Below are positions 2,037 through 20,973 of a stretch of 20,973 bases of DNA, in pieces. Each line of letters opens with the position of its first letter. Position 1 is the first letter of the stretch. The position numbers and the translations under genes were made by a program. The notes beneath the pieces are model-generated. The model was given only the letters and a program-made list of their open reading frames with translations, was not told the origin of the DNA and did not search any database. Origin of the DNA: Candidatus Eiseniibacteriota bacterium (GTDB lineage: Bacteria > Arandabacterota > Arandabacteria > JAGLYR01); NCBI GenBank assembly GCA_023132135.1, contig JAGLYR010000291.1, forward strand, positions 1-20,973, read 5' to 3'.

Positions 2037-2067
2037 ATCTATATACCTATAATGGCACGTTATAGGT
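2032..2067. promoter_or_regulatory. Palindromes between satD and the DUF3307 gene
   Basis: TATAGATCTATA (2032-2043) is a perfect 12-bp palindrome over the satD stop codon. It is followed by ACCTATAA (2045-2052) and its exact inverse TTATAGGT (2060-2067) with a 7-nt spacer, ending 10 nt before the DUF3307 start. The CTATA core resembles the sites upstream of satD. It may be an operator or a translational control hairpin that would lie at the DUF3307 ribosome binding site. Confidence 0.45.
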
Positions 2068-2077
2068 CTTGAGGCCA

Positions 2078-2830
2078 ATGGCAAACCTGGTGATCTCCTA
2101 TTTCGTCAGACTTCTGCTGGCTCATCTGCTGGCCGACTTCATGCTCCAGCCCGATCGCTGGATCGCAGACCGAAGACAGAGGGGTTGGCGAACTCCTTCA
2201 CTCTGGTTCCACTCCCTGGTTTCTGCGGCCGTCGCCTACCTGTTCGCATGGCAATTCCAGGCCTGGTGGCTTCTCCCGGTCGTGTTCGCCACTCACCTGT
2301 TGCTCGACGCTGCCAAGACCCGGACCGACTACGGCGCCCGAGCATTCATCGTCGACCAGATAGGCCACGTCGCTGTCGCCGCCGCCTGTGCCATCGTGCT
2401 GGCCGGCGTGCCCGTCGAGGCCATACTTCACACCGGCGAGTTCCTGGCCCAGTCCCGGTCGGCGTGGGTCGTTGTGACTGCCTACCTCCTGGTGCTCCGT
2501 CCTTGCGGAATGCTGGTCGGTCTTCTGACCGAACCACTCCGCAGGCAGATGGAGGAATCCGATCGCGATCGAGGGAAGACCCGCGTCCAAGGGCTGAGCA
2601 GGGCGGGAATGTGGATCGGCCAACTTGAGCGATTCCTGGTGCTCACGTTCGTCCTTGTGGGCCACTATGAGGCAATCGGGTTCCTCATAGCGGCCAAGTC
2701 CATCCTCCGGTTCGGCGAGATCCGCGATTCCCGCGACCGCCAGGAGGTCGAGTACATCCTCATCGGCACGATGCTCAGCTTCGCCGTGGCCATTGTCGTT
2801 GCTATCGCGGTCAGGCAGGTGCTGAGTTGA
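2078..2830 (+). CDS. DUF3307 family integral membrane protein
   Basis: The 250-residue product is mostly membrane helices. It carries the DUF3307 hallmarks: 'AHLLADFMLQPD' near residue 15, 'HLLLDAAKTR' near 80, and 'AFIVDQIGHVAVA' near 95, each with conserved His/Asp/Gln inside or at the edge of a helix. The function of the family is unknown; the conserved polar residues suggest a catalytic or transport site in the membrane. The start is taken at ATG 2078, preceded by GAGG at 2071-2074 (short spacing); a TTG at 2069 in frame is the alternative. The gene lies 41 bp after satD on the same strand, a common pairing, so it is probably co-transcribed and controlled by SatD. Family call is firm, function open. 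Confidence 0.85.
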   Translation: MANLVISYFVRLLLAHLLADFMLQPDRWIADRRQRGWRTPSLWFHSLVSAAVAYLFAWQFQAWWLLPVVFATHLLLDAAKTRTDYGARAFIVDQIGHVAVAAACAIVLAGVPVEAILHTGEFLAQSRSAWVVVTAYLLVLRPCGMLVGLLTEPLRRQMEESDRDRGKTRVQGLSRAGMWIGQLERFLVLTFVLVGHYEAIGFLIAAKSILRFGEIRDSRDRQEVEYILIGTMLSFAVAIVVAIAVRQVLS

Positions 2831-2844
2831 CCACTTGTCCTCCA

Positions 2845-2979
2845 TAGGGCTCTGTCCCGAAAAGCTGCGTGGGGATGGCAGTGTTGGTGTCCTTCGACGG
2901 GTTCAGGACGAACGGTGTTTTGGTGTCTTGAGAGCAAGCAGCCCTCCGTTCGCCCTGAGCCCGTCGAAGGGTCGACGGA
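2845..2979. repeat. Palindromic interspersed repeat, copy 1
   Basis: An 'AGGGCTCTGTCCCGAAAAG' terminus (2845-2863) precedes a 109-bp unit (2871-2979) that matches 4425-4533 at 105 of 109 positions with no gaps. Inside it, 25-nt arms at 2891-2915 and 2946-2970 are inverted copies of each other with two mismatches, separated by a 30-nt loop, so the RNA would fold into a long hairpin. The arm beginning CCTTCGACGGG is of a type I recall as widely scattered in environmental genomes, where it yields spurious 'VRPEPVEG' peptides. It lies in the 231-bp gap between the DUF3307 and ATPase genes. Confidence 0.85.
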
Positions 2980-3023
2980 GCTGTCGTGGCACGTAGCTCC
3001 GCCGCTCTGGGAACCCCATTTTG

Positions 3024-3062
3024 TGGTTGACATTCAACCACCGAATGGTTAATATTCAACCA
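3024..3062 (+). promoter_or_regulatory. Leaderless promoter covered by twin 17-bp palindromes
   Basis: TTGACA (3027-3032), 17 nt, TAATAT (3050-3055) forms a near-consensus promoter whose transcript should begin at or within a base or two of the ATG at 3062, so there is no room for a ribosome binding site. TGGTTGACATTCAACCA (3024-3040) is a perfect palindrome over the -35, and TGGTTAATATTCAACCA (3046-3062) is the same palindrome with one arm mismatch over the -10. Centres are 22 bp apart, about two helical turns, so a dimeric repressor could occupy both on one face. The ATPase contains a winged-helix-like segment, making autorepression possible. Confidence 0.65.
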
Positions 3063-4306
3063 TGATTCGGCGGAATATCACTCGTCCTCTTTTGGAAGCT
3101 CTGGCGGACCGCCCGGTAGTCTTGGTCAACGGCGCCCGCCAAACGGGCAAGAGCACCTTGGTCCAGTGGCTGGCTCGGGACTTGCACCCGGCGCGATACG
3201 TGACGCTTGACGACGCCACTGTCCTGGCAGCGGCGCGAGAAGATCCCCCTGGGTTCCTCCAGGGATTCGAAGGGCCCGTCATTCTAGATGAGGTCCAGCG
3301 AGTACCGGAACTGTTCCTGGCCATCAAAACCGAAGTGGATCGTGATCGCTCGCCTGGGCGCTTCCTCCTCACAGGTTCAGCTGACGTACTGCTGCTACCC
3401 CGTTTGTCGGAATCGCTGGCCGGAAGGATGGAGATTCACACCCTGTGGCCGTTGTCGCAGGGCGAGATCGAATCGGTGCAAGAGGAGTTTGTGGATGCCG
3501 TTTTCGCTCGATCTGCTAAGCTGGTGCCGGGCCCAAGATTAGACCGTGCAGACCTCTTGGACCGAATATTAGCTGGCGGCTACCCCGATGTGATCTCTCG
3601 CCGATCTCCATCTCGGCGAGCGGCTTGGTTCGGTTCGTATGTAACCACGATTCTCCAGCGTGACGTTCGCGATCTAGCTAACATCGAACATCTGACCACA
3701 ATGCCGCGGCTTCTGGCGTTGTTGGCCGCGCGGGTAGGCTCACTGCTCAACTTCTCCGAGATTTCTCGCTCCCTGGGTCTGCCGCAGAGTACCCTCAAGC
3801 GGTACGTAGCCCTTTTCGAGACGGCTTTTCTGTTTCAACCCTTGCCCGCTTGGTCGGGAAATCTCGGAATGCGGCTGATCAAGTCACCGAAGGTGATGCT
3901 CAACGACTCCGCTCTCGCTGCTCATCTCATGGGGCTCGACAGACGGCGGCTGCGGAAGCAACCATCGCTCGCAGGGCCGCTCCTCGAGGGCTTTGTCGTG
4001 ACGGAGCTGCGCAAGCAGGTCGGCTGGAGCCGCACGCAGCCAAGGCTATTCCACTTCCGCACCCCGGCAGGTCAGGAAGTGGACATTGTCTTGGAGGATG
4101 CTGCCGGCAGCGTTGTCGGGATTGAGGTCAAGGCCTCAGCCAGCGTGCGTGCGGACGATTTCAAAGGTCTCCGCGCTCTCAGGGATGCTCTCGGCAGCCG
4201 GTTCGTGAGAGGGATCGTGCTCTACACGGGTTTCGAATCCGTCGCCTTCGGGCCGAAGCTCTCGGCTCAGCCGATCACCGTGCTTTGGCGTACGAGCTCG
4301 AGCTAG
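3062..4306 (+). CDS. AAA_14/DUF4143 family ATPase
   Basis: This 414-residue protein belongs to the COG1373-type predicted ATPases. Walker A is GARQTGKST at residues 24-32, Walker B 'VILDE' at 73-77, and sensor-1 'LLTGSAD' at 102-108; 'SLAGR' (118-122) carries a candidate arginine finger. The DUF4143 part follows from about 190, with a winged-helix-like piece 'LLNFSEISRSLGLPQSTLKRY' at 228-248. The C-terminal third has a nuclease-like pattern: E310, D341 in 'GQEVDIVLE' and E355-K357 in 'GIEVKAS', fitting the PD-(D/E)XK fold usually assigned to this domain. The biological role of the family is unknown; it is commonly encoded as a single gene in variable regions. The gene stands alone between repeats and starts at the very end of its promoter, so it is probably translated from a leaderless message. 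Confidence 0.88.
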   Translation: MIRRNITRPLLEALADRPVVLVNGARQTGKSTLVQWLARDLHPARYVTLDDATVLAAAREDPPGFLQGFEGPVILDEVQRVPELFLAIKTEVDRDRSPGRFLLTGSADVLLLPRLSESLAGRMEIHTLWPLSQGEIESVQEEFVDAVFARSAKLVPGPRLDRADLLDRILAGGYPDVISRRSPSRRAAWFGSYVTTILQRDVRDLANIEHLTTMPRLLALLAARVGSLLNFSEISRSLGLPQSTLKRYVALFETAFLFQPLPAWSGNLGMRLIKSPKVMLNDSALAAHLMGLDRRRLRKQPSLAGPLLEGFVVTELRKQVGWSRTQPRLFHFRTPAGQEVDIVLEDAAGSVVGIEVKASASVRADDFKGLRALRDALGSRFVRGIVLYTGFESVAFGPKLSAQPITVLWRTSSS

Positions 4307-4310
4307 GGTT

Positions 4311-4382
4311 CCAGGGTGCCGGGTCCTGCAATGCGACATCCCCGGTCCCACCGATGTGGCATTGCAGGACCTGGCACCCTGG
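4311..4382. repeat. Long hairpin, 30-bp stem
   Basis: The arms 4311-4340 and 4353-4382 pair at 28 of 30 positions around a 12-nt loop, starting 5 nt after the ATPase stop codon. There is no run of T after either side, so it is not a typical intrinsic terminator. It could protect the 3' end of the message or be a mobile palindromic element. No second copy is present in this window. Confidence 0.8.
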
Positions 4383-4396
4383 ACTGTCAGGAGGGT

Positions 4397-4559
4397 CTTT
4401 TCGGGGCAGAGGACGAACGCTTTTGGGGATGGCAGTGTTGGTGTCCTTCGACGGGCTCAGGACGAACGGTGTTTTCGTGTCAGGAGAGCAAGCAGCCCTC
4501 CGTTCGCCCTGAGCCCGTCGAAGGGTCGACGGATACGGGTCTTTTCCGGACAGAGCCCT
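4397..4559. repeat. Palindromic interspersed repeat, copy 2
   Basis: This copy contains the same 109-bp unit as 2871-2979 (105 of 109 identical), here at 4425-4533. The 25-nt arms 4445-4469 and 4500-4524 are inverted copies with one mismatch. It is bounded on the left by CTTTTCGGGGCAGAGG (4397-4412) and on the right by CTTTTCCGGACAGAGCCCT (4541-4559), both versions of the end motif found at the other repeats, here in the same orientation rather than inverted. Several short open frames cross it; all are by-products of the palindrome. Confidence 0.85.
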
Positions 4560-4957: not shown

Positions 4958-5473
4958 ATGTTACGGAAACTTCCACCGGCACTCCGGTGGCTGCGAATCC
5001 CTTTTCAGGTGTGGCAGCGGACTCTCCACGTCATTGCCAGGCTCTCGCCTGGGGCTGAATCCCTGAGGATTTGGCTGCACAAGGCGAGGGGGGTGCGCAT
5101 TCACGGAAAAGTCTTCCTGGGAGTCAACGTCTACATCGACGATGAGTACCCAGAGAACGTGACCATTTATGAGAACTCGGTCATTGGAATCTCTTCGATC
5201 ATCATCTCTCACTTTCGTGGAGTGGGGACAGTGGAAATCGGGCCAGACGCGTTCGTCGGGCCCAACAGTGTGATACTGCCCAATGTCTGTATCGGGGAGG
5301 GAGCTGTCGTGGCTGCGGGATCCGTGGTGACCCGCGACGTTCCACCCTACACATTGGTGGGGGGGGCGCCCGACGCCAAGCCGATGGCCCGTGTGACCAA
5401 GACCTTGGGTCGAGGCAAGAGCATGGAGGAATTCCAGCGTGGGCTGAGACCACTGCGGCCGAGTGGACAGTAG
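4958..5473 (+). CDS. Left-handed beta-helix (hexapeptide repeat) acyltransferase
   Basis: The 171-residue protein matches the LbH acetyltransferase fold (COG0110 type): a helical N-terminus, then hexapeptide coils from about residue 65 ('VTIYENSVIG', 'VEIGPDAFVG', 'VCIGEGAVVAAG') and the closing 'RDVPPYTLVGGAPDAK' typical of sugar O- or N-acyltransferases. A His in 'IIISHF' is a candidate catalytic base. Acetyl-CoA is the usual donor, but the next genes encode an FkbH-like protein and an acyl carrier protein, so an acyl-ACP donor is possible. The start is set at ATG 4958 because AGGGG (4946-4950) lies 7 nt upstream; GTG 4955 and a longer frame from GTG 4889 are alternatives. It opens a four-gene plus-strand cassette, with 44 bp to the next gene. 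Confidence 0.85.
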   Translation: MLRKLPPALRWLRIPFQVWQRTLHVIARLSPGAESLRIWLHKARGVRIHGKVFLGVNVYIDDEYPENVTIYENSVIGISSIIISHFRGVGTVEIGPDAFVGPNSVILPNVCIGEGAVVAAGSVVTRDVPPYTLVGGAPDAKPMARVTKTLGRGKSMEEFQRGLRPLRPSGQ

Positions 5474-5517
5474 ATGTCTCGACACGTCTCGGGCTGCTCG
5501 CTCAGGAGGTATATTTA

Positions 5518-6576
5518 GTGGGTAATATCAAGTGCGTGATTTGGGATCTGGACAATACGATTTGGGAAGGAACCTGTCTTGAGGATGAGAGTGTCCGCGT
5601 TCGACCCGAGATACGCCGGGTTCTTCAGGACATCCACAATCGAGGCATCGTCAACTCCATTGCCAGCAAGAATGAGCCGATCGCCTTGGAGTTTGTCGAG
5701 AAAATGGGCCTGAGTGAGTTCTTTGTCTATCCCCATGTCAACTGGGAGCCGAAGGAGGACAACATCCGTCGAATCGCCGAGACCCTGAACATCGGTCTTG
5801 ACGCAGTGGCTTTTGTGGATGATAACCCCTTTGAGCGAGAGTCGGTGAAAGCCGTCCTTCCCGAGGTTCGCACCTACGATGCAATTGACTATCTCAGGAT
5901 TCCTGATCTGCCGGAAATGCAACTCAAGTACGACACTCCTGAAGCGCGGGCCCGGGGCCGCATGTACACGGACGAGGCAGCCCGCAAGGAGATGGAGAAC
6001 GAACACGAGGGGCGGAAGGAAACCTTCTTCCAGTCGCTGCAGATGATTGCCTATCCACGTCTTGCAAATGCGGAGGATCTCGGCCGCATCAGGGAACTCG
6101 CGACCCGTACCAATCAGTTCAACTCGACGGGAATCCGCTATTCCGACGAGGAGATTGGCGAGTTCTTCCACAGCGACGACCACGAGTTCCACATCACAAC
6201 CCTGGTAGACAAGTATGGAGACTACGGCCGCTGCGGGGTGGCACTGATCCGCAAGGAGCCGGAGGCCTGGAACATCGAGCTCCTCCTCGTCTCATGTCGC
6301 GTCGCCGGCCGAGGGCTCGGCTCCACGTTTCTATCATATCTCACGGAAGAGGCCGCGTCGGCGGGGTGCAAGATCCTCCGCGCGAAGTACATCAAGACTG
6401 ACCGCAACCGACAGATAGGACTGCTGTACAAGATTCTGGGTTTCAACAAGGACAAAGAACTGAGCGATGCCGAGGCAAGCGTCTTTGCTTATGTCCTCAG
6501 CGGTACGCCCGCACCGCGGCCCGAATGGATCGCCGTCGAGCGCAGCTCCGAGCAACCCGAGGATGCCCATGGCTGA
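5518..6576 (+). CDS. FkbH-like HAD-IIIC/GNAT protein
   Basis: The 352-residue protein has an N-terminal HAD-IIIC domain with motif I 'DLDNTIWEG' (nucleophile D10, partner D12), 'IASKNEP' (motif II), the Lys of 'WEPKEDNI' (motif III) and 'FVDDNPFERE' (motif IV). A GNAT-like domain follows from about residue 180 ('RIRELATRTNQFNSTGIRYSDEEI', 'RVAGRGLGSTFLSYL'). This is the FkbH architecture. Characterised FkbH proteins take 1,3-bisphosphoglycerate, remove a phosphate and load glyceryl on a carrier protein. A carrier protein gene overlaps the 3' end by 8 nt, which fits. The start is GTG 5518 with AGGAGG (5504-5509) 8 nt upstream. The real acyl group cannot be told from sequence alone. Confidence 0.88.
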   Translation: MGNIKCVIWDLDNTIWEGTCLEDESVRVRPEIRRVLQDIHNRGIVNSIASKNEPIALEFVEKMGLSEFFVYPHVNWEPKEDNIRRIAETLNIGLDAVAFVDDNPFERESVKAVLPEVRTYDAIDYLRIPDLPEMQLKYDTPEARARGRMYTDEAARKEMENEHEGRKETFFQSLQMIAYPRLANAEDLGRIRELATRTNQFNSTGIRYSDEEIGEFFHSDDHEFHITTLVDKYGDYGRCGVALIRKEPEAWNIELLLVSCRVAGRGLGSTFLSYLTEEAASAGCKILRAKYIKTDRNRQIGLLYKILGFNKDKELSDAEASVFAYVLSGTPAPRPEWIAVERSSEQPEDAHG

Positions 6577-6835
6577 TCGAGAATGGGTGGAGAAGGAGCT
6601 GAGAAGCATCATCGCTGCCGGAATGCCCGACAAACCGGATCCTGCCTCGATAGCCGCGAATGTCCCGATCTTCCGTGAGGGGTTAGGTCTGGATTCTCTC
6701 AGCGGGCTGCGACTTCTCACGACCATTGAAGAGCGCTTCAGTGTCTATATCGATGACGACGATTTCGATGTCTTCGACAGCCTCCAGAAGCTGATTGACT
6801 TCGTGGCCGAACGAGCCGAAGGAAAGGAGTCATGA
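6569..6835 (+). CDS. Acyl carrier protein
   Basis: This is an 88-residue four-helix carrier protein. The phosphopantetheine attachment site is S43 in 'GLGLDSLSGL', and the end 'DFDVFDSLQKLIDFVAER' has the usual helix IV pattern. The start ATG 6569 lies inside the end of the FkbH-like gene (8-nt overlap) with GAGG at 6559-6562; a longer frame from 6467 would read through FkbH coding sequence and is not credible. Its stop overlaps the next start (ATGA at 6832-6835), so translation of the three genes is coupled. It is a dedicated carrier, not the housekeeping fatty-acid ACP, judged by context. It needs a phosphopantetheinyl transferase from elsewhere in the genome. Confidence 0.9.
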   Translation: MADREWVEKELRSIIAAGMPDKPDPASIAANVPIFREGLGLDSLSGLRLLTTIEERFSVYIDDDDFDVFDSLQKLIDFVAERAEGKES

Positions 6836-8133
6836 ACCTTGCCATGGTCACGCGCGCGATCCGTCGCTATGTGCTCATCCAGGATCGCCCGGCTTATGAG
6901 GAGTTGCTCCAGCACCTCGACACTCACCAGGACGTGTGGAAGGTTCCTCAAGGGGAAGTGGCTGCTTGGTGGGAGCGGAGGCAAACGGCCTCCCTTGATC
7001 TGAGCATCGTGCAGGGGGGCACGCTCCGGATTTCGTGCCCCCTGGGAGACAGCGTTGTCGAGATCGATGGACACGATCTCAGAATCCCACCGTTCGAGTG
7101 TTCCGTTTCTCTCGACATGCCACGCGGCGCCGTCTCCGTAACCTACGGGTACACTGGAATACATTCGGACTTCGTCAATGAGATGCTGGGCCATCTGGGA
7201 TACGGGCACTTGACTCCGGCGCCCCCGGGGCAGCACGCCGACATCGCGGAGGAGCATTGGACCACGGTTCTGGAAACCCTGCGTTGCAGCGCTGTTGATA
7301 ACAAGCGTTACGAGCGCGAGGGAATTGACGCTCTCCGCTCCCTCATCTCCGAGGCGCACCATCGACGTGGCATCCCCGACCTCAGGCTCTGGAGCCTGCC
7401 CCACCGATCCGGCCGACCTTATCGTGCCGCGGTTTCCACTCGCTACGACGTGGACAAGGCAATCGTGAACCTGCCGGCCATTCACGAGCTCGAAGCCAAA
7501 TACGGTCTCAGGAGCACGGCCTACCTTCGCCCCATGGGACTCTTCTACGGTCCGTCAGAGATCCGCCGCTACAGGAAGGTCTCCGGAGAAAATGAGGCGG
7601 CCCTTCACGGAGAGTTCGTATCGACTGCTGAAAGGCGCTTCGGAGACGAATTGACGGCTGCCCGCAAGGAGAAGGAATTCCTGGAGGAAGTGATCTGTGC
7701 AGAGGTCCGGGGAGTTTGTATGCATGGTGGCGAACTCCGTACGAATACTACGTCGCGCACACAATCTGCTATCGAAGCGGCAGGATTCAAGTACGAGACC
7801 ATGTACCGCAACGACTACTATTTTCCCCTCCATCTCCCCACTGACCAGGGAGTGCGGAAGACGTTGAGTATTGGGCAGCATTTCGCAGACGTCACGGTCG
7901 AGCCCGGCCCGGCGTTCCCGATGATTCTAGCTCGGACCTTCATCGATCGCTTCTCACAGGCCGCCGCTGAGGGAGGAATCTTCGTCCCGGTTATGCATCC
8001 ACTGTACTTCGGTTTGGCCCGTTACCTTCGCCATCCTATTAACCTGCTTCGCTTGGCGGCGTTTGTGCCGAAGTTCGTCGTCACCGCAAGCCGCACGAAG
8101 CGCGGCGAACAGTACTCCAACCGCCCCGAGTAA
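6832..8133 (+). CDS. Polysaccharide deacetylase-like (NodB fold) protein with extra N-terminal segment
   Basis: The 433-residue protein has a NodB-like catalytic region from about residue 195: 'AAVSTRYDVDKA' with D206/D208 in the place of the first metal and base aspartates, 'ALHGEFVS' (H259), 'CMHGGEL' (H298) and 'VMHPLYF' (H389). Such enzymes remove N- or O-acetyl groups from sugars with a bound metal ion. The first 60 residues ('RPAYEELLQHL..DVWKVPQGEVAAWWERR') read like the tail of another NodB domain, placed here in front and followed by a beta-rich stretch (60-115). The protein may be permuted or a relic of a two-domain enzyme. There is no signal peptide, so a cytoplasmic sugar substrate is possible. 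The ATG overlaps the ACP stop, tying it to the acyl cassette. Confidence 0.75.
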   Translation: MNLAMVTRAIRRYVLIQDRPAYEELLQHLDTHQDVWKVPQGEVAAWWERRQTASLDLSIVQGGTLRISCPLGDSVVEIDGHDLRIPPFECSVSLDMPRGAVSVTYGYTGIHSDFVNEMLGHLGYGHLTPAPPGQHADIAEEHWTTVLETLRCSAVDNKRYEREGIDALRSLISEAHHRRGIPDLRLWSLPHRSGRPYRAAVSTRYDVDKAIVNLPAIHELEAKYGLRSTAYLRPMGLFYGPSEIRRYRKVSGENEAALHGEFVSTAERRFGDELTAARKEKEFLEEVICAEVRGVCMHGGELRTNTTSRTQSAIEAAGFKYETMYRNDYYFPLHLPTDQGVRKTLSIGQHFADVTVEPGPAFPMILARTFIDRFSQAAAEGGIFVPVMHPLYFGLARYLRHPINLLRLAAFVPKFVVTASRTKRGEQYSNRPE

Positions 8134-8200: not shown

Positions 8201-10135
8201 CTACTCGAGGTATCCGATAGCCTTCAGCTTGCGTTTCAGGTCGTCATAGGCTTGGGCGTCTGTATCTCCGGCTTTGTAGGGGAAGCTATACTCGCTAATG
8301 ACATGGCTGGAAGGCGAGCCATTTCTCAACGCAGCGCGACCCGTCCACGCAGAGGAGACCGGCAAACCGAGCAGAGCGGCAACGGTGGGCGCCACATCCA
8401 ACACGTGGAGTGAGTCCGTCGAGACAGCCTTGGCTGCCGATGGGCCGGAGAGCAGGTAGATCCCGTCAGGGTGGTGGACCCCAGAGTAGTTGGATTCCTC
8501 GGCGGCGCGGATGAGATCGTCGAAGCCGTACTCCTTGCCGTGGAGTGCAATCCGAGCCTCTCGGGGAAGTGTGTATCGGGGTACAAGCGAGAGGCAGAGC
8601 GATCCCTCCTCGCGCACTACTTCGAACAGAGGCGCGTCCTCGCTCACAAAGTGCGCGGTTCCGAGAACCGCTTCGGCCAGATCGAGTGCTCTCTTCTTCT
8701 CAGCGGCTGTCGGGCTCACAGCCCGAAGGTAGACTTTCAGGTCCAGGTTTGTCCCGAAAAGGCTATCCTCGAGCTCTAGCGCGGCGATCAGGTTCTCCGT
8801 CCTGATCCGACAGAACCTCCCGGCGATTACTCCTCCGGATGCCTTCTGAAACCCATGATCAGACACAATAACCATGTCCACGTCTTCGCGGACTGTGCGG
8901 AGGAGTTTTCCCAGACTGCGGTCTACCTCCATGTAGAGCTCGTCAATCACTCCCCCATACCGCTCGCGGTCGGCATCAGTTACTTCCGGGAATCCCTCGG
9001 GGTGAAGGTACTTCCAGTATACGTGCGACACTTTGTCTACAGGCGTGAAGAGGACGGCTCCGAACTCGGGCCGCCGAGTGCGAAGCAGCTCGACGAAAAT
9101 GTCGGCTTGGAGAGCGGTGTAGAGTACTCTGCTTCTCCAGAACTGGTCTCGACTCGTGCGGCGCAGGAGACGCCGTCCCAGTACGTCAATGACAGCACGC
9201 CGCAGAGTGGAAAGCCGCACACCACCGCGAATAGCCTGGAGGCCCGCAAGAGGAAATGAGATTGAGCCTTTTTGCTTCAGATGCTCCCGCGCCCACAGCA
9301 ACCAGAACAGCGAGTACTCCGGAGGGAACGTCTGGCTATCGCCAGCCAAGGTGCTCGGGATCACAAAATCGCGTTCCCCAAGGTCTGGCACGGGCGGCCA
9401 CGTGAAGTACCAACCGCAGAGGCCGTAGGATCTGCCCTCGAGCTTCAGCTGATCCCAGATGCGCCCAACACGGAAGTCCCGCTGCGTGTTGCTGAATCCC
9501 TCAATGCCGTGAACCGCAGGCGTGCAGCCTGTAGCGATGGTGCTCCACACCCGTGGCGAGAGCATGGAGGGGAGAGAACGTAGTTTTGCTCGATGCCCGT
9601 TCTGAAGGACCTGCGCGAAGTGGGGCAGCTTTCCGGTTCCAATCATGGTGTCAATGTGGGGCCATCGGGCGCCATCCACGCCGATGAGAAGCACACGAGG
9701 TCCGTCAGTGAGGCGACCCGGGCCGGGCCACAGGAGTACAGCAAATCCCACAGCAACTGACAGCAAGGCTGCTGTGAGCGCGGACCACTTGGCGACGGCG
9801 CACCTGGCCGCTGCGACAATGAGGAAACCGGCGAGGACCGGAATGAGCCAGAGTAGAAGGCTGTCGGATCCTTCTCTCGTAAGAACCAGCCATGCCATGG
9901 GCTGGAGCATGGCGGCGAGAAGTCCGGCGTACCGGTGGATCACTTTCAAGAGAAGAATTAACAACCCGGGAACGCCGAAAAAGAGAAGAAGTACAATTCC
10001 CCTCTCGTCGAGGGTCAGAGGTGTCGCCAAACGAACGGCGGCAATCGATGCGGCGCCACTCAGCGCAATTACCGCCGTCCACACTAGTGCCGATACCCAT
10101 CGAGGCGTACAAGTGGGCTTGTCAGAAGATTGCAT
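8201..10135 (-). CDS. Membrane-anchored alkaline phosphatase superfamily phosphodiesterase/phosphotransferase
   Basis: This is a 644-residue protein with four or five membrane helices in residues 12-138, then a type I phosphodiesterase/nucleotide pyrophosphatase-like domain. Metal and catalytic positions are visible: D154 in 'LIGVDGARWP', S193 in 'LSPRVWSTIATG' where the family has its Thr/Ser nucleophile, D367 and H371 in 'VDKVSHVYW', D426/H427 in 'IVSDHGFQ', and H555 in 'VHHPDGIYLLSG'. The catalytic domain should lie outside the membrane. The substrate is unknown; relatives hydrolyse or transfer phosphodiesters such as nucleotides, phosphoglycerol or phosphoethanolamine. The ATG has GAGAGGA about 11 nt upstream. 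The gene converges on the deacetylase gene 67 bp away, and no clear terminator is seen between them. Confidence 0.85.
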   Translation of the reverse strand: MQSSDKPTCTPRWVSALVWTAVIALSGAASIAAVRLATPLTLDERGIVLLLFFGVPGLLILLLKVIHRYAGLLAAMLQPMAWLVLTREGSDSLLLWLIPVLAGFLIVAAARCAVAKWSALTAALLSVAVGFAVLLWPGPGRLTDGPRVLLIGVDGARWPHIDTMIGTGKLPHFAQVLQNGHRAKLRSLPSMLSPRVWSTIATGCTPAVHGIEGFSNTQRDFRVGRIWDQLKLEGRSYGLCGWYFTWPPVPDLGERDFVIPSTLAGDSQTFPPEYSLFWLLWAREHLKQKGSISFPLAGLQAIRGGVRLSTLRRAVIDVLGRRLLRRTSRDQFWRSRVLYTALQADIFVELLRTRRPEFGAVLFTPVDKVSHVYWKYLHPEGFPEVTDADRERYGGVIDELYMEVDRSLGKLLRTVREDVDMVIVSDHGFQKASGGVIAGRFCRIRTENLIAALELEDSLFGTNLDLKVYLRAVSPTAAEKKRALDLAEAVLGTAHFVSEDAPLFEVVREEGSLCLSLVPRYTLPREARIALHGKEYGFDDLIRAAEESNYSGVHHPDGIYLLSGPSAAKAVSTDSLHVLDVAPTVAALLGLPVSSAWTGRAALRNGSPSSHVISEYSFPYKAGDTDAQAYDDLKRKLKAIGYLE

Positions 10136-10527: not shown

Positions 10528-13131
10528 ATGGTGCTCCGATGTTTCTGGGTTACACTCGCTGCTGTTGCTGCCCTGATGTGGGGGGCGGTGTCACCGACAT
10601 TTGGGGCGGTTTCATGGGAACTTGTCGGGGTCTCGGGTCCGGCCGCGACCATAGCCCTTGCTGTGAGTCCTTCTTCTTCGGACACGATGCATGTGGGGAG
10701 CGACATGGGTGGGCCCTACAAGAGCTGCGACGGCGGTGGCAGCTGGGATGCCATTGTTGGTGGTCTGATGTGCGAAGACTGGCAGCACCGTGTCACGATC
10801 GGGGGTTTCTTGGTAGACCCCTACGACACCGACGTGCTGTATAAGGGAGGGCAATACCTGTATAAGAGCACCGACGCAGGTGACAATTGGGTCAAGCTGC
10901 GCGAAGAATACAACGTCCGTCTGGGCATGGATACTTCCAATCCAGACACACTCACGCTGTACAGTGCAGACTACTTCGACTGGGCGGACGATGATAGTCT
11001 GTTCGTGAAGTCAACGGACGCGGGAGCCACTTGGAGCTCCCTCGTCGATGGACTGCCGGAGCCGGACACATTCTATGTCTACGCAATCGAAGTTGATACA
11101 CTCACATCCGATGTCTACGCTGCGACCAGCAAGGGACTGTATCGCAATGCAGGTGGCGATAGTACTTGGGTATGTGTTAGTACGGACAGCCTGACGGCGA
11201 GAATGGGGTATCTATACAAGGATACCGGGATAGAGAGATTTTTCAAGATCTATCCTCTGGCTCTGAGCCGGAGTGACTCCAGTCTGACTCTCTATGTTGT
11301 TGCAGACAGTGTGTACATAAGCACAGATGCTGGGGCCACCTGGGGCACGACAGACTGCACGGGCCTTCCTTTGAACTTGGCTACGGATTCGGTGTTTGAT
11401 CAGATCGCCATTCACCCAAGCTATCCCGGAACGCTCTACGTGAGCGCAGACTACGGTCTTTACAAGTCCACCGACTATGGCGATAATTGGAGCTCTCTTC
11501 TTTCGAGCCACCCGGCTTGCTATGGGCACTGGGTATGGGGCAGCAAGCCGGGTTGCCTCGGAATCCAGATCTGCGAATCCGACCCGGATGTGGTTCTCGC
11601 CGGGCGTCTGGTGTCGTGGGACGGGGGTTCAAACTGGTCCTGTGCTGCCACCGATACCTCGTGTGGAAGCAGCTATTGGGAGACAAAGGGCGTTTCTCCG
11701 ATGTGCGCGAACGGCATAGCGGTGAATCCGGTGGATGGTGACACTGTCTATTTTGGCTATGCAGACGCGGGATTCCTCGACAGTCATGATCAAGGCACGT
11801 GCTGTCGTTACGACTCGACGGGAATGGCCTTGGGATCTGGCGGCGAAGACGTGTATGACATCGCCATCGATCCGGATTCGCCGAACATCATATATGCGTC
11901 TGTTTGGCACTTTTTCGGCGAGGACACCGTCAAGAAGAACAAGCTCTTCAAGAGTACAGATCAGGGGGGGAACTGGACGGAGCTCTGGAACACAACTAAT
12001 GACAACACAATCACGTCAATTGCTCTGGGGACACAGGGAACCCCGACGACGCGGACCATCTACATCGGAGTCGAGAATGTAGGCGTGTACAAGAGCACCA
12101 ACGCGGGTTCCACGTGGACCAACGTGACCAATGATCTTGGACAAGCAGGCCTGTCGGGTAGCAACAATCGACTCGTCACCAGACTCATCGTCGAGCCCGG
12201 AGACGATGATCACGTGTTTTGCTCCATCAAGATGGACTACACTGACACGAGCAGCGGGAGAACAGCGCCTATCTTCGGGGGAGTGTGGGAGACGACTGAC
12301 GGGGGAAGCGATTGGGATCGAACGGCTACACTCCCGTCCGTCCACGATGTGGCCATGGACCCGGACGACCATGACATTCTCTGGGCGGCGGCTCAGGATC
12401 ATGTAGTGTGGAATACGTACCCGACTGACGATACGGTCTATGCTGGGGGTGCGTACAGGAGTGCCAACGGTGGGACCAGTTGGATCCTGAAACAAGCGAA
12501 TCCTTGGGTGAGTTGTGTTTCCATCAACCCAGAATGTCCGAGCATCGTGTTTGCTGGCTGTAGAGATTTCAAGAGAACATCTTGGCAGAAGGACAATACA
12601 CTGGAGGATGGGCCTGTCGAGAAGGATTGCAAGATGATCCGTACCGCCAACAATGGAACGAGCTGGTCGAGCGTCAACTCCGGGATCGACCACATGTGGT
12701 TTGAGCGCATCGTCCATGACCCAACGGATGAGCACACCCTGTACACGGCAACTTGGGGTGGTGGCATCTACAAGGGTAGCGATACGTACCAGAACTGTAT
12801 TGGTGGTGGTGGCGGCTCTCCACCGTCGCCTAGGGACGACAATGTGAATCTGGGCGTGTACTTCTTGAATCAGAATATCCCAAATCCATTCAATCCAGTG
12901 ACGCAGATCAAGTTCGGTCTTCCAAGGGCCGGGGAACTTGACATTTCGATCTACAACATCTTGGGTCAAAAGGTGATCCAGTTGGTCTCGGGTCGGCATG
13001 AGGCGGGGATCTACCAGGCAACGTGGGATGGTACGAACCCGAATGGCCAGCCAGTTGCCAGTGGGATCTATTTCTGCCGGATGGAAGCTGGCGAGTTCAA
13101 GAAAACTCGGCGCTTGGTAATGCTGAAATAG
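10528..13131 (+). CDS. Secreted BNR/Asp-box beta-propeller protein with FlgD-type C-terminal tail
   Basis: This 867-residue protein begins with a signal peptide (hydrophobic residues about 7-24, likely cut near 'TFGA'). From about residue 112 it carries at least nine Asp-box-like repeats of the form 'STDxGxxW' ('YKSTDAGDNW', 'FVKSTDAGATW', 'YISTDAGATW', 'YKSTDYGDNW', 'FKSTDQGGNW', 'YKSTNAGSTW', 'WETTDGGSDW' and later weaker ones). This is the pattern of sortilin/GH74-like propellers; no glycosidase catalytic pair could be assigned. A Gly/Pro/Ser linker (about 755-770) leads to 'NIPNPFNPVTQIKFGLP', then an Ig-like FlgD domain ending 'GIYFCRMEAGEFKKTRRLVMLK'. Tails of this kind direct secretion and surface attachment through type IX or a similar route. 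The function may be adhesive or hydrolytic; the sequence does not decide. Confidence 0.85.
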   Translation: MVLRCFWVTLAAVAALMWGAVSPTFGAVSWELVGVSGPAATIALAVSPSSSDTMHVGSDMGGPYKSCDGGGSWDAIVGGLMCEDWQHRVTIGGFLVDPYDTDVLYKGGQYLYKSTDAGDNWVKLREEYNVRLGMDTSNPDTLTLYSADYFDWADDDSLFVKSTDAGATWSSLVDGLPEPDTFYVYAIEVDTLTSDVYAATSKGLYRNAGGDSTWVCVSTDSLTARMGYLYKDTGIERFFKIYPLALSRSDSSLTLYVVADSVYISTDAGATWGTTDCTGLPLNLATDSVFDQIAIHPSYPGTLYVSADYGLYKSTDYGDNWSSLLSSHPACYGHWVWGSKPGCLGIQICESDPDVVLAGRLVSWDGGSNWSCAATDTSCGSSYWETKGVSPMCANGIAVNPVDGDTVYFGYADAGFLDSHDQGTCCRYDSTGMALGSGGEDVYDIAIDPDSPNIIYASVWHFFGEDTVKKNKLFKSTDQGGNWTELWNTTNDNTITSIALGTQGTPTTRTIYIGVENVGVYKSTNAGSTWTNVTNDLGQAGLSGSNNRLVTRLIVEPGDDDHVFCSIKMDYTDTSSGRTAPIFGGVWETTDGGSDWDRTATLPSVHDVAMDPDDHDILWAAAQDHVVWNTYPTDDTVYAGGAYRSANGGTSWILKQANPWVSCVSINPECPSIVFAGCRDFKRTSWQKDNTLEDGPVEKDCKMIRTANNGTSWSSVNSGIDHMWFERIVHDPTDEHTLYTATWGGGIYKGSDTYQNCIGGGGGSPPSPRDDNVNLGVYFLNQNIPNPFNPVTQIKFGLPRAGELDISIYNILGQKVIQLVSGRHEAGIYQATWDGTNPNGQPVASGIYFCRMEAGEFKKTRRLVMLK

Positions 13132-16313: not shown

Positions 16314-17174
16314 CTACCAACGGAGATCCGTCTGTCGGAGTCGTCCGTCCGCAAGGCGCAGGTATTCGGGATTGATGTCGTACCCCGCGTAGCGCCGGCC
16401 GGTCTCCTTTGCCGCCACGCATGTTGCGCCTGCGCCGCAGAAGGGATCAAGCACGAGGTCATCCCGGAAAGTATAGAGCTCAATGAGTCGCCTGGGGAGC
16501 TCAACGGGGAAGGGGGCGGGATGTCCGACCTTTTTCGCCGATTCCGGAGGGATTTCCCAGACGGAGAGGGTCTCACGCATGAAAGCGTCGCGCGCGATCG
16601 TGTTCTCGCCCTTGACCACCCGGTCGAAGCGTCCCTTGGAGAACACCAGCACGTACTCGTGCAGATCGCGAAGAATTGGGTTGGCGGCCGATTGCCAGGA
16701 GCCCCAGGCGCACGAGCCGCTCGCGCCCCTGCCCTTCACCCAGATGATCTCGCCACGCATCAGGAACCCGATCTCGATCATCAGGAGGTTGATCCAGGAA
16801 GCGAGCGGGACGTAAGGTTTGCGCCCCGCGTTCGCCACGTTGACGCACGCGCGGCCTCCGGGCTGGAGCACACGGTGCGTTTCTGTGAAGACCCGCTCGA
16901 GAAGCCCCAGATACTCGTCCATCGTCAGGTCATCATCGTAGTCCTTCCCGACGTTGTAGGGGGGGGAGGTCACCATCAGCGATACGCAGCTGTCGGGAAG
17001 CTCGTGCATGTCCTCGGAGCTGTGGCAGATGAGCCGGTCGACCACGTCCGCCGGCGGGGGATTGACGCTCGTGTCGGTGGAGATTTCGACGTCGTGCATC
17101 TTCCTGGCGTAGTAGGAGGATGCATCGTGTCCCTCTCGCCTGGATGCGCCGAACTTCCGCGTCCTGGTTCCCAC
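16314..17174 (-). CDS. Site-specific DNA methyltransferase (N4/N6 amino type, beta-class order)
   Basis: This is a 286-residue amino-methyltransferase. Catalytic motif IV is 'TSPPYN' at 69-74, and the AdoMet-binding motif I 'LDPFCGAG' lies at 242-249 near the C-terminus, preceded by 'HPAPFP' (218-223); this order (IV before I) defines the beta class. The start GTG 17174 is preceded at 7 nt by GAGGAG, and it keeps the N-terminal 'RKFGASRREGHDASSYY' segment that I recall from related enzymes; the inner ATG at 17099 would remove it. N4-cytosine or N6-adenine cannot be decided, nor the target site. No restriction endonuclease gene is next to it, so it is probably a solitary, regulatory-type enzyme. 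It lies 26 bp after the C25 protease gene. Confidence 0.88.
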   Translation of the reverse strand: MGTRTRKFGASRREGHDASSYYARKMHDVEISTDTSVNPPPADVVDRLICHSSEDMHELPDSCVSLMVTSPPYNVGKDYDDDLTMDEYLGLLERVFTETHRVLQPGGRACVNVANAGRKPYVPLASWINLLMIEIGFLMRGEIIWVKGRGASGSCAWGSWQSAANPILRDLHEYVLVFSKGRFDRVVKGENTIARDAFMRETLSVWEIPPESAKKVGHPAPFPVELPRRLIELYTFRDDLVLDPFCGAGATCVAAKETGRRYAGYDINPEYLRLADGRLRQTDLRW

Positions 17175-17200
17175 AGTCCATCTCCTCGGTGGATGCCCCA

Positions 17201-20200
17201 CTATCGGAGCAACAGCATTTTCCTGGTCCAGCTCCCGTCCCGGGTCACGAGGCGGCAGAAGTACAGGCCGGGGGCCGCAGAGCGGCCGTGGTCGTCCACA
17301 CCGTTCCACTGAACAAGGTGGAATCCGGTTTCCCGGTGCGAATCGACCAGTGATCGAACCAGGCGCCCTCTGACGTCATAGATTCCAAGAGATACGTGCC
17401 CGGGCCGGGCGAGATCATACCGGATTGTGGTGAGCGGAGCAAAGGGATTGGGGAAACTGGCGTGGAGCAGTGTCGCAGGAATTGCGGTCCCCGAGCCATC
17501 CGCCAGCAGGAAAGGCATGGGGACGAACCGGATTGCCCGTCCGGGCTCCAGTTCGGCCGCGCCGTCCGGGTACCAGTTGAAATAGGTGTACAGCAGGCCG
17601 TCGGTGTGATCCAGGTTCTCGATACCCACCGTGGAGTACGCCTGCTGGCCCTCCTCGTTGACAACGGTGTGATATTGGAACAGGATCTCGCCGTCGCCGG
17701 TCGACGTCGGGTGGAAGACCGGATCAAGCAGGACGGCCTCAAAGGTCTGCTCGCTGCCGGGGAATGACTTGTTCTGCATCCGGCTCCACTCGATGATGTA
17801 ACGGTGGTTCTCTTCATCGTAGTATTCCCAGACCCCCGATTCCGCAACCATGTAGAGATCTTCCCAGAAGGGGGCGATCATGGCGTCGGGTCCGCCGGGA
17901 GCGGGGAGGAAAGTGTTCCAGCAGTCTTCGAGCCCCGTGGATCCCATGGCAATCCAGCCGTCGGGAGAAATCGTGACGGAATCGAAAGTGGCGCCGTAGA
18001 AGGCGAATGGGAAGGGGAGGGCTACGGTGACGTGATCTGCGCTGCCCAGCCAGTAGTCGCTGTCGTCATCCAGATTCAGGATCCGGCCGGGACCCCCGCA
18101 GTCCCCAGCGATTTCGATCCAATCATACACAGGCGCCTGGGCATAGGCTGTATCCGTGTCGTCGAAGGCGAAGTAGCCGTACTCGTCGGGACCGAGCGGG
18201 TCTGTACTCCCGGCGGAGCCAATCGTGAGTCCGATCGCGACGGTGTCCCGGAGGCCGGATGATGTTTCCAGGGCCAGGAGGCACGGCGCCAAGTGTCCGG
18301 GGAAGCACTCCGCAGATACCATGACTTCAAACGGGTCCTCCCGGTTCGACCCGACCCGCCCTTGAGGAATGGATCCGAACGTTCCGACCGGAGTGGTCAC
18401 CGTCACGTACTGACTGAGGGAGATGAGCGTGCCCGTCACATCCGGTGCATCGAGAGACCCGGAGTTCCTGATATCGATCGCGACCTCAGTCGCCTGTGCC
18501 GGATCCACGCGCAGCCCGGTGCGGAGCCGCGTGCGGACGGCGATCTCGAATCTGGCCGACGCGACGGGGATCTCGAGGAGCGCATTCCAGCTGCCCTCAT
18601 CCGAGTGGATTTCCAGCGCCACGGGGATCACGTGCCCGTGCGGACAGCCACCGGCGATGGCCGCCGTGAAACCGTTGGGACCACAAACGGTCTCGCCGGC
18701 GGGAAGGTCTCCAAACGCTCCGGCATCACCGGTCAGGACAACGAAAGGGTCACCGGTATTCGCGGCCACGGTAACATGGTGCGCTGTGGAGATTCCCCGG
18801 TTCTCGATGTGGACGAAAATCCCGATGGTCTCGCCGGCGTTTGCCACACCATCGCCGTTTCCGCAACCAGCCGCCGACCCGTCGTCAAGGATATCGAAGT
18901 TCCTCAGAACCAGGTTGGCGTCCTCGTTGCGGACGGGGATCTCCCCGCACAAGGCAGCGCAGTTCCAGCTTGTGACCGTGATCTGCAGCGACCCGGGGGT
19001 CTGGATGTTCACACAGAGGTCGACCAGGCCGTTGCCGCCGGTCAGTCCCGAGACATGCATCTCATCTTCCTTCCACAGGCAGACGCAGGCTCCCGGTATC
19101 GGTTCCCCGGTGGTTCCGTCGCGGACACCAACCCGCACGGATGTAGTTCCCACGGCGATGGTGTCGGGATGTGCGACGTCCATCCGGCCAGGGGGTCGTG
19201 TCCAGCAGCGTGTGGCAGGATCGCCGATGAGGTTGGTCTTGCGGATGGCGCTCTCGGCGAAGGCAGGCTCGTCGTATCCGAAGTGGAGGTACTCGTTGAT
19301 CTTGCCGCGGGTCAGGGCGGCCCCGAGCTCGGCGATTCCCTCGTACACGAGACCCTGGAAAATCCCGTACATCATGACGTTATTGGTGCGCGTGTAGGTC
19401 TCATCTGTGGAAACCCCAACGGCGCCGATGCCACCGGCGGGCGAGCCAAGGCTGCCGGCTCTCAGGAAAGCCTCCGCCGCGCAGGTTCCCATGTAGGCGA
19501 AGGACCCCGTCTCGCAGGTGAGCGTGACGGCAAAGGGCAGCATCTCCCCGTTGTCCAGGTCCAGGATCACGGTGTTGTAAATCCCGCTCATGGGCTCGTG
19601 GCCGCGGTAGGCCATGAGGCTCACCCCGCGGTTGAGGGATTCGGTGAAGCGGTTGGCGAAGTGCTCCTCGTAGATCTCGTCCACGCACGTGTATCCGACC
19701 TCCCGGAGCCCCCGGGCAACCCATTCCATCACGTGCCTGCAGGTTACGCCGGACCCGGAGGGTGGATGCCGCGGGTCGCCGATGAGGCACGCGCCCAGGA
19801 ACCAGTCGGGATTGTCCATGCAGGGTTCGGTCTCGTACCGGATGATCTTGTCGATGATGTATTCCAGCTCGGTCGTATCCTGAACGGAGATCCGGCCGAT
19901 GTGAACGTCGGGGAGAAGATCGTCTCCATCCAACAGAGCGTAGTGGGTGTCCTGCGCCCCGGGTCCGTAGAAAAACGTCCGGACGATCAGGTTTGTGTAG
20001 AGCGCATCCCCCACAAGAACGACGTACTCGGGCGGGTTCTCCCAGCAGTCATAGGCATCCTGGATGAGATCCTTGATGATCATGTACGTCGTGGGTCCCT
20101 TGTCTGCCACCGGGATCAGGACCGACGGGTAGCCCATCCGGGTCCGCCATTCCAGAAGTGGGCGGACCATGCGGATGACGGTTGAATCGTCCGGACAGAT

Positions 20201-20869
20201 CATGAGGTAGCTGCCGTTGACAACGCGCTGGTTCTCCCCGGGTCCCTTGTAGTTCAGAACGGTTGAGCGGTAGATCCGATCGAAGGACGACGCTATTGCC
20301 GGCCGGTCCGGCCTTCCGGCATTACGAGCGTCGCCGCCCTCGAAACGGATCTCGACGGTCAGGCTCCGGGTGACCTCGAGGGTCTTCCGGACGGGATCGC
20401 AGCGCACAGGCTCAAAGATCAGCGGAACCACGCGGAGATCCCGAAAAACGGCAGGGGCTCCCAGGCGGACGGGAGGGACATCCGGAGCCGGCTGCACCGG
20501 CAGGAGGCCGTGGCCGTCGATCACACTTTGCACGCTCTTGACAACCCTCAGGTGGACGCCGGACTCCGGGGGGATCGCTATCAGGCGCGTGATGGTCGGC
20601 ATTGAGCATGGACCGGCATTGCCCGTGATTTCCCCGCCGGGGATTGTGATCTGCTGAAATGTGTGGCCGTCGACGTCAACATCGTGGCTCTCCAGCGCGG
20701 GAAGATTGAATAGCAGGGTGAAGCCGCCCTTTGTCTCGTTGAAGATCTCGAAGGAAGGGCTGGATGAAGATGCACCGGGGTCGAGGCGGATCAGGCGGGA
20801 GTCGGCATGGGAACTGCCGGCCATTGCGACGGCAATACCCAGCCCCATGAGCAGCGTGGTTCTTCGCAC
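17201..20869 (-). CDS. Secreted gingipain-like C25 cysteine peptidase with FlgD-type C-terminal tail
   Basis: The 1222-residue protein has a signal peptide (residues 1-22), a propeptide-like region to about 215, and a C25 catalytic domain of about 220-600. Candidate catalytic residues are H424 in 'AYRGHEPMSG' and C452 in 'VTLTCETGSF', spaced like the gingipain His/Cys pair; 'YVVLVGDA' and 'IGRISVQD' are typical core strands. It continues with an Ig-like insert (about 620-680), CARDB-like beta modules (690-920), a NIDO-like region with 'PFPFAFYGATFDSVTISPDGWI' (about 965-990), then 'FPNPFAPLTTIRYDLA' and an Ig-like tail ending 'GLYFCRLVTRDGSWTRKMLLLR'. The start is GTG 20869: GGAG lies 7 nt upstream and it gives a clean signal peptide; the frame is open to 20917, over the promoter. 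Surface or extracellular protease; specificity unknown. Confidence 0.88.
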   Translation of the reverse strand: MRRTTLLMGLGIAVAMAGSSHADSRLIRLDPGASSSSPSFEIFNETKGGFTLLFNLPALESHDVDVDGHTFQQITIPGGEITGNAGPCSMPTITRLIAIPPESGVHLRVVKSVQSVIDGHGLLPVQPAPDVPPVRLGAPAVFRDLRVVPLIFEPVRCDPVRKTLEVTRSLTVEIRFEGGDARNAGRPDRPAIASSFDRIYRSTVLNYKGPGENQRVVNGSYLMICPDDSTVIRMVRPLLEWRTRMGYPSVLIPVADKGPTTYMIIKDLIQDAYDCWENPPEYVVLVGDALYTNLIVRTFFYGPGAQDTHYALLDGDDLLPDVHIGRISVQDTTELEYIIDKIIRYETEPCMDNPDWFLGACLIGDPRHPPSGSGVTCRHVMEWVARGLREVGYTCVDEIYEEHFANRFTESLNRGVSLMAYRGHEPMSGIYNTVILDLDNGEMLPFAVTLTCETGSFAYMGTCAAEAFLRAGSLGSPAGGIGAVGVSTDETYTRTNNVMMYGIFQGLVYEGIAELGAALTRGKINEYLHFGYDEPAFAESAIRKTNLIGDPATRCWTRPPGRMDVAHPDTIAVGTTSVRVGVRDGTTGEPIPGACVCLWKEDEMHVSGLTGGNGLVDLCVNIQTPGSLQITVTSWNCAALCGEIPVRNEDANLVLRNFDILDDGSAAGCGNGDGVANAGETIGIFVHIENRGISTAHHVTVAANTGDPFVVLTGDAGAFGDLPAGETVCGPNGFTAAIAGGCPHGHVIPVALEIHSDEGSWNALLEIPVASARFEIAVRTRLRTGLRVDPAQATEVAIDIRNSGSLDAPDVTGTLISLSQYVTVTTPVGTFGSIPQGRVGSNREDPFEVMVSAECFPGHLAPCLLALETSSGLRDTVAIGLTIGSAGSTDPLGPDEYGYFAFDDTDTAYAQAPVYDWIEIAGDCGGPGRILNLDDDSDYWLGSADHVTVALPFPFAFYGATFDSVTISPDGWIAMGSTGLEDCWNTFLPAPGGPDAMIAPFWEDLYMVAESGVWEYYDEENHRYIIEWSRMQNKSFPGSEQTFEAVLLDPVFHPTSTGDGEILFQYHTVVNEEGQQAYSTVGIENLDHTDGLLYTYFNWYPDGAAELEPGRAIRFVPMPFLLADGSGTAIPATLLHASFPNPFAPLTTIRYDLARPGHVSLGIYDVRGRLVRSLVDSHRETGFHLVQWNGVDDHGRSAAPGLYFCRLVTRDGSWTRKMLLLR

Positions 20870-20908
20870 GGCGTTTCTCCGGAGGATGATGGCGGTCTGA
20901 GCGTTCCC

Positions 20909-20914
20909 ATTATA
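20909..20914 (-). promoter_or_regulatory. Consensus -10 element for the C25 peptidase and following genes
   Basis: TATAAT on the minus strand would start transcription near 20902, about 33 nt before the chosen GTG. No good -35 is seen (nearest is TGCAAC-like near 20933-20938). It supports the shorter protein start. It may drive the whole minus-strand run. Confidence 0.4.
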
Positions 20915-20973
20915 CACGAATGGGAAGCAGATGGTTGCAGATTACGCAGAGGGCAAGACACAGAGACTGGGGC

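Follow-up and report, generated by a model that had tools for sequence, protein, structure and literature searches.

A compact FkbH, carrier protein, acyltransferase and NodB-like gene cassette in Candidatus Krumholzibacteriota: a candidate module for N-glyceryl decoration of amino sugars

The O-antigen of Pragia fontium carries D-glyceroyl on Qui4N and thus contains a 4-(D-glyceroyl)amino sugar (PMC10609480), and the S-layer glycan of Tannerella forsythia contains 7-N-glyceroyl pseudaminic acid (PMC9912281). A di-O-methylglyceroyl-pseudaminic acid is described for the flagellar glycan of C. jejuni (PMC3068675) and an fkbH-domain gene, cj1302, for the same locus (PMC7099621); the suggested connection between cj1302 and the glyceroyl modification is our own. 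We found no paper that names genes for the attachment of glyceryl to a sugar amine, and a search that covered few subscription papers returned nothing relevant that joins FkbH with O-antigen or polysaccharide. In polyketide pathways, dehydrogenases oxidise glyceryl-acyl carrier protein (glyceryl-ACP) to hydroxymalonyl-ACP (PMC7489565; PMC3679948), and tetronate pathways use glyceryl-ACP without dehydrogenases (PMC7489565). Here we analyse one whole contig (21 kb, hereafter the window) of a 3.4-Mb genome (96% complete, 345 contigs), which we place in Candidatus Krumholzibacteriota, and in it a compact cassette of four genes for a beta-helix acyltransferase, an FkbH-like protein, an ACP and a NodB-like protein. 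We propose, at a probability of about 0.48 and thus just short of even odds, that this is a small operon whose enzymes N-glycerylate, in the cytosol, an amino sugar that is later built into a surface glycan or glycolipid.

FkbH would take the glyceryl unit from 1,3-bisphosphoglycerate, remove the phosphate and load the dedicated ACP, and the gene content suggests that the resulting glyceryl-S-ACP would be used as such. The NodB-like protein, to judge from its fold and anchor residues, could deacetylate a GlcNAc-type sugar in the form of a nucleotide sugar or of a lipid-linked precursor, and the amine so exposed might then receive the glyceryl unit of the ACP through the beta-helix acyltransferase, as NodA acts after NodB or LpxD after LpxC. 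Deacetylation and acyl transfer are the least certain steps. This order of events was put forward in the original prediction, an earlier reading of the same DNA, and we consider it the best reading: the genes are kept together, ketosynthase (KS) and dehydrogenases are absent, and a parallel set occurs in a glycan locus. The donor and acceptor of the transferase and the deacetylase activity keep the status of predictions.

A four-gene cassette in two species

The four open reading frames lie on the plus strand where they had been placed before. The left-handed beta-helix (hexapeptide-repeat) acyltransferase of 171 aa (4958–5473; PF00132) is followed, after a gap of 44 nt with an AGGAGG ahead of a GTG start, by the short-form FkbH-like glyceryltransferase/phosphatase of 352 aa (5518–6576; TIGR01686), the ACP of 88 aa (6569–6835; PF00550, with S43) and a divergent protein of the NodB/CE4 superfamily of 433 aa (6832–8133), assigned by profile-profile comparison. 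As described earlier, the last three genes overlap, FkbH and ACP by 8 nt (6569–6576) and ACP and the NodB-like gene by 4 nt (6832–6835). The word "fused" in the title of the original prediction would be wrong if it meant a gene fusion, since the genes are separate and overlapping. Terminator-like sites in the cassette region did not exceed the level in shuffled sequence.

The nearest relative of the locus, L009, lies on contig JAFGPI010000025.1 of a Candidatus Krumholzibacteriota metagenome-assembled genome, a second species. The order is the same, with the acyltransferase at 207–719, FkbH ending at 1780, the ACP ending at 2067 and the NodB-like protein at 2064–3359, so that the 4-nt overlap of the last two genes is retained. 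Identity between the two copies is 80% for the acyltransferase, 70% for FkbH, 65% for the ACP and 54% for the NodB-like protein. The flanks of the second copy differ and consist of a peptidase-like gene, a weakly PMT_2-like membrane protein and histidine kinases. Because the four genes are kept together in a second species on different flanks, they behave as a unit and their grouping is not due to chance; the neighbourhood search thereby bears out the expectation that relatives would keep them together, L009 being the one close relative that it revealed. When FkbH patterns were run against 84,980 species, no further close copy of the cassette appeared, the next FkbHs having at most 47% identity, and FkbH was absent from seven further genomes of the class to which the window genome belongs.

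The L009 acyltransferase begins at the residue equivalent to the ATG at 4958 (MLR.LP), which makes this ATG the likely start of the window gene. Our reading of the four proteins revealed no evident signal peptide, and the chemistry is probably cytosolic; the proposed substrate is therefore a nucleotide sugar or lipid-linked precursor in the cytosol.

FkbH and carrier protein outside polyketide synthesis

The FkbH-like protein matches TIGR01686 with 257 bits against a curated cut-off of 146.65. In an alignment of 101 FkbH sequences it retains the HAD residues D10, D12, T14, S50, K79, D101 and D102 as well as Cys260, which are common to nearly all or all of the 99 other FkbHs aligned, and the HAD motifs are thus as intact as they had first appeared. 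Family knowledge and these catalytic residues lead us to propose that the enzyme forms glyceryl-S-ACP from 1,3-bisphosphoglycerate. The carrier protein matches PF00550 with 35 bits (cut-off 20.8), and its phosphopantetheine serine S43 lies within LGLDSLS, in agreement with the earlier assignment of S43 to a DSL motif.

In the FkbH tree, the proteins of the window and of L009 form one clade (support 99), which is sister to a short-form clade of 83 rows (99). All but one of these 83 other short-form loci possess a 3-hydroxyacyl-CoA dehydrogenase (HADH) and/or an acyl-CoA dehydrogenase (ACAD), and most also a polyketide synthase (PKS); the only exception without dehydrogenases, L029, is a 3.1-kb contig. 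Neither HADH nor ACAD nor KS was found in the window cassette or in the L009 cassette, and both consequently lack the pair of dehydrogenases beside FkbH and ACP that marks hydroxy- and methoxymalonyl-ACP pathways. Since the dehydrogenases are absent, the FkbH product most likely remains glyceryl-ACP, which is probably the end product of this step here. Two residues of the window FkbH, F201 and R207, are typical of long-form FkbHs (15 of 16 and 16 of 16), many of which come from glycan loci, whereas PKS-type short forms have L (83 of 83) and T (82 of 83) at these positions.

Most close FkbH relatives belong to clusters for polyketides or tetronates, and the cassette might accordingly be a remnant or unit of a PKS, non-ribosomal peptide synthetase (NRPS) or tetronate pathway, supplying methoxymalonyl-ACP as an extender or glyceryl-ACP for tetronate closure; the latter route would need no dehydrogenases (PMC7489565). 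However, KS, FabH-like, HADH, ACAD and adenylation genes are missing from both cassettes, and the FabH-like enzyme and PKS of a tetronate operon have no counterpart, with no KS or KSIII match in the L009 cassette or among the window genes. The absence of a ketosynthase near the cassette had been noted before and extends to both copies. Genome-wide, the only two PP-binding domains are those of the cassette ACP and of the fatty-acid ACP, and the single true KS adjoins the latter; no modular PKS or NRPS was found in this 96%-complete genome. Polyketide, NRPS and nucleotide-sugar genes were also not found anywhere in the window contig; polyketide or NRPS genes just outside the cassette had been named beforehand as an observation that would speak against a glycan function. 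With an FkbH outside the hydroxymalonyl clade, we reject such a pathway on gene content, genome scan and FkbH tree; it is highly improbable and close to refuted.

Acyltransferase and divergent NodB-like protein

The acyltransferase belongs to the hexapeptide-repeat proteins (PF00132, 41.6 bits, cut-off 27), and His85 is conserved between the window and L009 enzymes. The named families that come closest, all of them with scores under their curated cut-offs, are O- and N-acetyltransferases that act on glycan or lipid precursors. Mostly they are O-acetyltransferases, including heptaprenylglyceryl phosphate, galactoside and WcaF-type enzymes, and heptaprenylglyceryl phosphate O-acetyltransferase gives the best NCBIfam match (2e-22, likewise under the cut-off). 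Neighbours in the PDB are CoA-dependent acetyltransferases and, more weakly, LpxA, an acyl-ACP enzyme. A tblastn search against plasmids gave zero matches. We infer from gene context that the enzyme may transfer the glyceryl unit from the ACP.

Three other roles for this enzyme have to be weighed. It could O-acylate a sugar or lipid and form a glyceryl ester, with the NodB-like protein acting elsewhere or erasing the acyl group, as the preponderance of O-acetyltransferases among its named families and the pairing of FkbH-ACP sets with MBOAT-family proteins in other species would suggest. A deacetylase and an acyltransferase in one operon, which also occur in the loci L152 and L159 described below, are however more simply explained by deacetylation followed by N-acylation, and we regard O-acylation as unlikely. 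Rather unlikely, too, is an ordinary acetyl-CoA enzyme that shares with the other genes a regulatory unit for one glycan, while glyceryl-ACP serves an enzyme encoded elsewhere. The dominance of acetyl-CoA enzymes among the sequence neighbours agrees with this, and partners could lie elsewhere in a genome of 345 contigs, but both species keep the four genes side by side although the flanks differ, and neither cassette holds another enzyme to accept the acyl group. Finally, the glyceryl unit could be passed to a glycolipid or an aminolipid, such as a GlcNAc-lipid that is deacetylated first, and the product could be a glyceryl-modified membrane lipid instead of a polysaccharide. The heptaprenylglyceryl phosphate match points in this direction, as does the GlcNAc-phosphatidylglycerol deacetylase that is one of several families matched by NodB relatives of the phylum; both matches are, however, weak and unspecific, and related FkbH-ACP sets lie mostly in polysaccharide loci, which makes a lipid product quite improbable.

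N-glycerylation after deacetylation depends on the fourth protein, whose NodB-like nature was recognised in the original prediction. No direct family match supports this call; profile-profile comparison with a control nevertheless places the core of the protein in the NodB/CE4 superfamily. It has zero Pfam, NCBIfam or PDB matches, with no PF01522 match up to E 0.1 (and none up to E 1 for its L009 relative), and the two PF01522 matches of the window genome lie elsewhere than in the cassette. An N-terminal tryptophan-rich (WWERR) beta domain precedes a NodB-like core with the motifs R204-Y-D206-V-D208, H259-G-E261, C296-M-H298-G and H389-P390. A first profile search gave one weak match in another genome, L107. 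Its relatives, collected in alignment A5, come from Spirosoma, Sphingomonas and haloarchaea and are NodB-like. Several of them belong to surface-glycan loci, and genes of this family sit among genes for sugar aminotransferases, acyltransferases and nucleotide sugars. Comparison of residues 201–305 with A5 by hhalign yielded 95.6% (E 1.1e-8), against 0.5% for the FkbH control, and A5 in turn aligned with canonical deacetylases at 96.7%. R-x-D-V-D, H259 and H298 coincide with invariant A5 positions, and H389-P390 corresponds by eye to the HP of A5; profile homology and the DxD...H...H...HP anchors of the broad NodB/CE4 superfamily are thus both present.

The WWERR domain resembles a domain located behind NodB in relatives (L106; family A8; hhalign 85%, E 5.8e-6). 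Five other Krumholzibacteriota genomes (L146–L150) carry an A8-type NodB family, in which the WW-type domain is followed, at the extreme C-terminus, by TGDIDCLTLGDF, the catalytic DxD strand of this family, and the PF01522 matches start at profile position 25–45. Judged by its sequences, this family seems to be circularly permuted. In the window protein the order is different again, with the WW domain before a whole NodB core, and both orders may have arisen by rearrangement from an ancestor with NodB and WW in tandem. Searches for relatives of the NodB-like protein in viruses and plasmids found none.

Several points weigh against N-glycerylation by the cassette. In the NodB-like protein, the canonical HxxxH is replaced by H259-G-E261. 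As the second His is missing, deacetylase activity is uncertain; HxE is also the rule in most of A5, and metal binding may differ from that of canonical NodB. A structure model built from two sequences reached a pLDDT of 42 and was unusable. The sequence neighbours of the acyltransferase are mixed and mostly acetyl-CoA-dependent, the FkbH tree is a quick tree with long branches, the window cassette has neither a glycosyltransferase nor a nucleotide-sugar gene next to it, and the exact cassette is known in two copies only.

Related gene sets, surroundings and known systems

FkbH also occurs in glycan loci of other bacteria. Long forms of about 600 aa were found in polysaccharide loci of public plasmids of Aquisphaera, Maritalea and Azospirillum, the Maritalea locus holding pseB and a gene of the N-acetylneuraminate-synthase family. 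ACP-FkbH sets with an MBOAT gene are present on Sinorhizobium meliloti pSymB and on a Rhodobacteraceae plasmid, and the long-form FkbH of a Pseudalkalibacillus plasmid lies inside a fatty-acid-like cluster. In a wider genome set, an ACP followed FkbH in most cases, and the FkbH-ACP pair was followed by a beta-helix acyltransferase in L152, L153 and L159 and by an MBOAT gene in L154 and L155. In L152 (genome G105), genes for FkbH, ACP, beta-helix acyltransferase, methyltransferase and PF01522 deacetylase (3.7e-17) follow one another in this order, and upstream of them lie genes for a FemAB-type protein, a sugar aminotransferase and a flippase-like protein; its congener L159 (G371) retains the aminotransferase, FemAB, FkbH, ACP, beta-helix and NodB genes. 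To judge from these gene sets, the four functions have come together a second time, independently, in L152 and L159, so that the grouping singled out in the original prediction recurs in a glycan locus of another lineage, in two species. Our surveys of other phyla for sets of FkbH, ACP, acyltransferase and NodB covered small phylum samples only.

These occurrences allow a broader reading, which we hold more tentatively: the cassette could be a self-contained module that exchanges the N-acetyl of an amino sugar for N-glyceryl drawn from glycolysis (1,3-bisphosphoglycerate). It would then be a candidate genetic basis of N-glyceroyl sugars that arose on at least two separate occasions, once in Krumholzibacteriota from a short FkbH and a rearranged NodB-like protein and once in L152 and L159 from a long FkbH and a canonical NodB. 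The cassette and the wider FkbH-ACP-acyltransferase sets provide a concrete, testable gene set for N-glyceroyl sugars and suggest that FkbH is not solely a polyketide enzyme. FkbH matches tend to be taken as signs of polyketide clusters; small-acyl decoration of glycans could be predictable from genomes.

Some FkbH loci combine other genes. A locus of a Sedimentisphaerales planctomycete (L057:1151–5184) has a complete hydroxymalonyl-type set of HADH, ACP, ACAD and FkbH and, behind it, a NeuD/PglD-like beta-helix acyltransferase; the contig is 5.4 kb long and holds no PKS. This locus hints that decoration may also draw on other products of FkbH, possibly hydroxymalonyl. Six loci of Magnetococcales, Desulfobacterales and Magnetocorallium (L014, L025, L033, L041, L043 and L053) have FkbH and one or both dehydrogenases; over the stretch examined, the query used detected no PKS.

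In the window, the cassette lies between an upstream AAA-ATPase/DUF4143 gene and a downstream minus-strand gene (8201–10135) for a type I phosphodiesterase-family protein. In Halobaculum (L129:5007–7381), a member of the family of NodB-like relatives is followed by an alkaline phosphatase family protein, an arrangement to be compared with this phosphodiesterase neighbour. The gap that separates the AAA-ATPase gene from the cassette holds a 31-nt inverted repeat (4310–4383), which is 94% complementary around a 12-nt loop. Two 110-nt direct copies (2870–2979 and 4424–4533), 96% identical, each contain a 25-nt inverted repeat, CCTTCGACGGGCTCAGGACGAACGG, whose arms occur four times in the window against 0 expected; these repeats look like a REP- or MITE-like element. 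Further downstream, a sortilin/BNR-repeat protein (10528–13131) and a gingipain-type C25 peptidase (17201–20917) both bear C-terminal FlgD/Por-type secretion tails. The peptidase reading frame is overlapped by 109 nt, on the same strand, by that of an N4/N6 DNA methyltransferase (16314–17309), and the true start in this overlap probably lies further in.

Among the gene sets found elsewhere, L109, L112, L152–L155 and L159 follow the same logic as the cassette without a ketosynthase, and L152 and L159 share with it the beta-helix acyltransferase and NodB deacetylase. They differ from the cassette in their long-form FkbH and their canonical NodB or MBOAT, and often lie inside larger polysaccharide clusters. 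LpxC and LpxD deacetylate a GlcNAc derivative and then N-acylate it, the second step being carried out by a beta-helix enzyme that uses acyl-ACP. The proposed cassette pathway would likewise deacetylate and then N-acylate from an ACP by a beta-helix enzyme, but LpxC is without the NodB fold, and the LpxD acyl group is 3-hydroxyacyl instead of glyceryl. NodA, to our knowledge, is not a beta-helix enzyme. In Nod factor synthesis, NodB similarly frees a GlcNAc amine, which NodA N-acylates from acyl-ACP (PMC5080398); there the acyl group is fatty acyl instead of glyceryl, and the NodB-like protein of the cassette is far diverged and has another domain order. The methoxymalonyl-ACP and tetronate genes (Mad7/Mad8, Mad14/Mad12; PMC7489565) resemble the cassette in that FkbH charges a separate ACP with glyceryl from 1,3-bisphosphoglycerate, as is proposed here. 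Methoxymalonyl pathways then employ two dehydrogenases and a methyltransferase, and tetronate pathways a FabH-like enzyme and the chain of a PKS; the cassette has none of these, and its FkbH is also phylogenetically separate from those of these systems. The C. jejuni locus resembles the cassette in pairing an FkbH-domain gene with a sugar of a surface glycan that bears a derivative of glyceric acid; the passages used here name no NodB-like deacetylase for it. The logic of deacetylation and N-acylation is thus already known from NodB-NodA and LpxC-LpxD, N-glyceroyl sugars are already known products, and the cassette is a variation on that logic.

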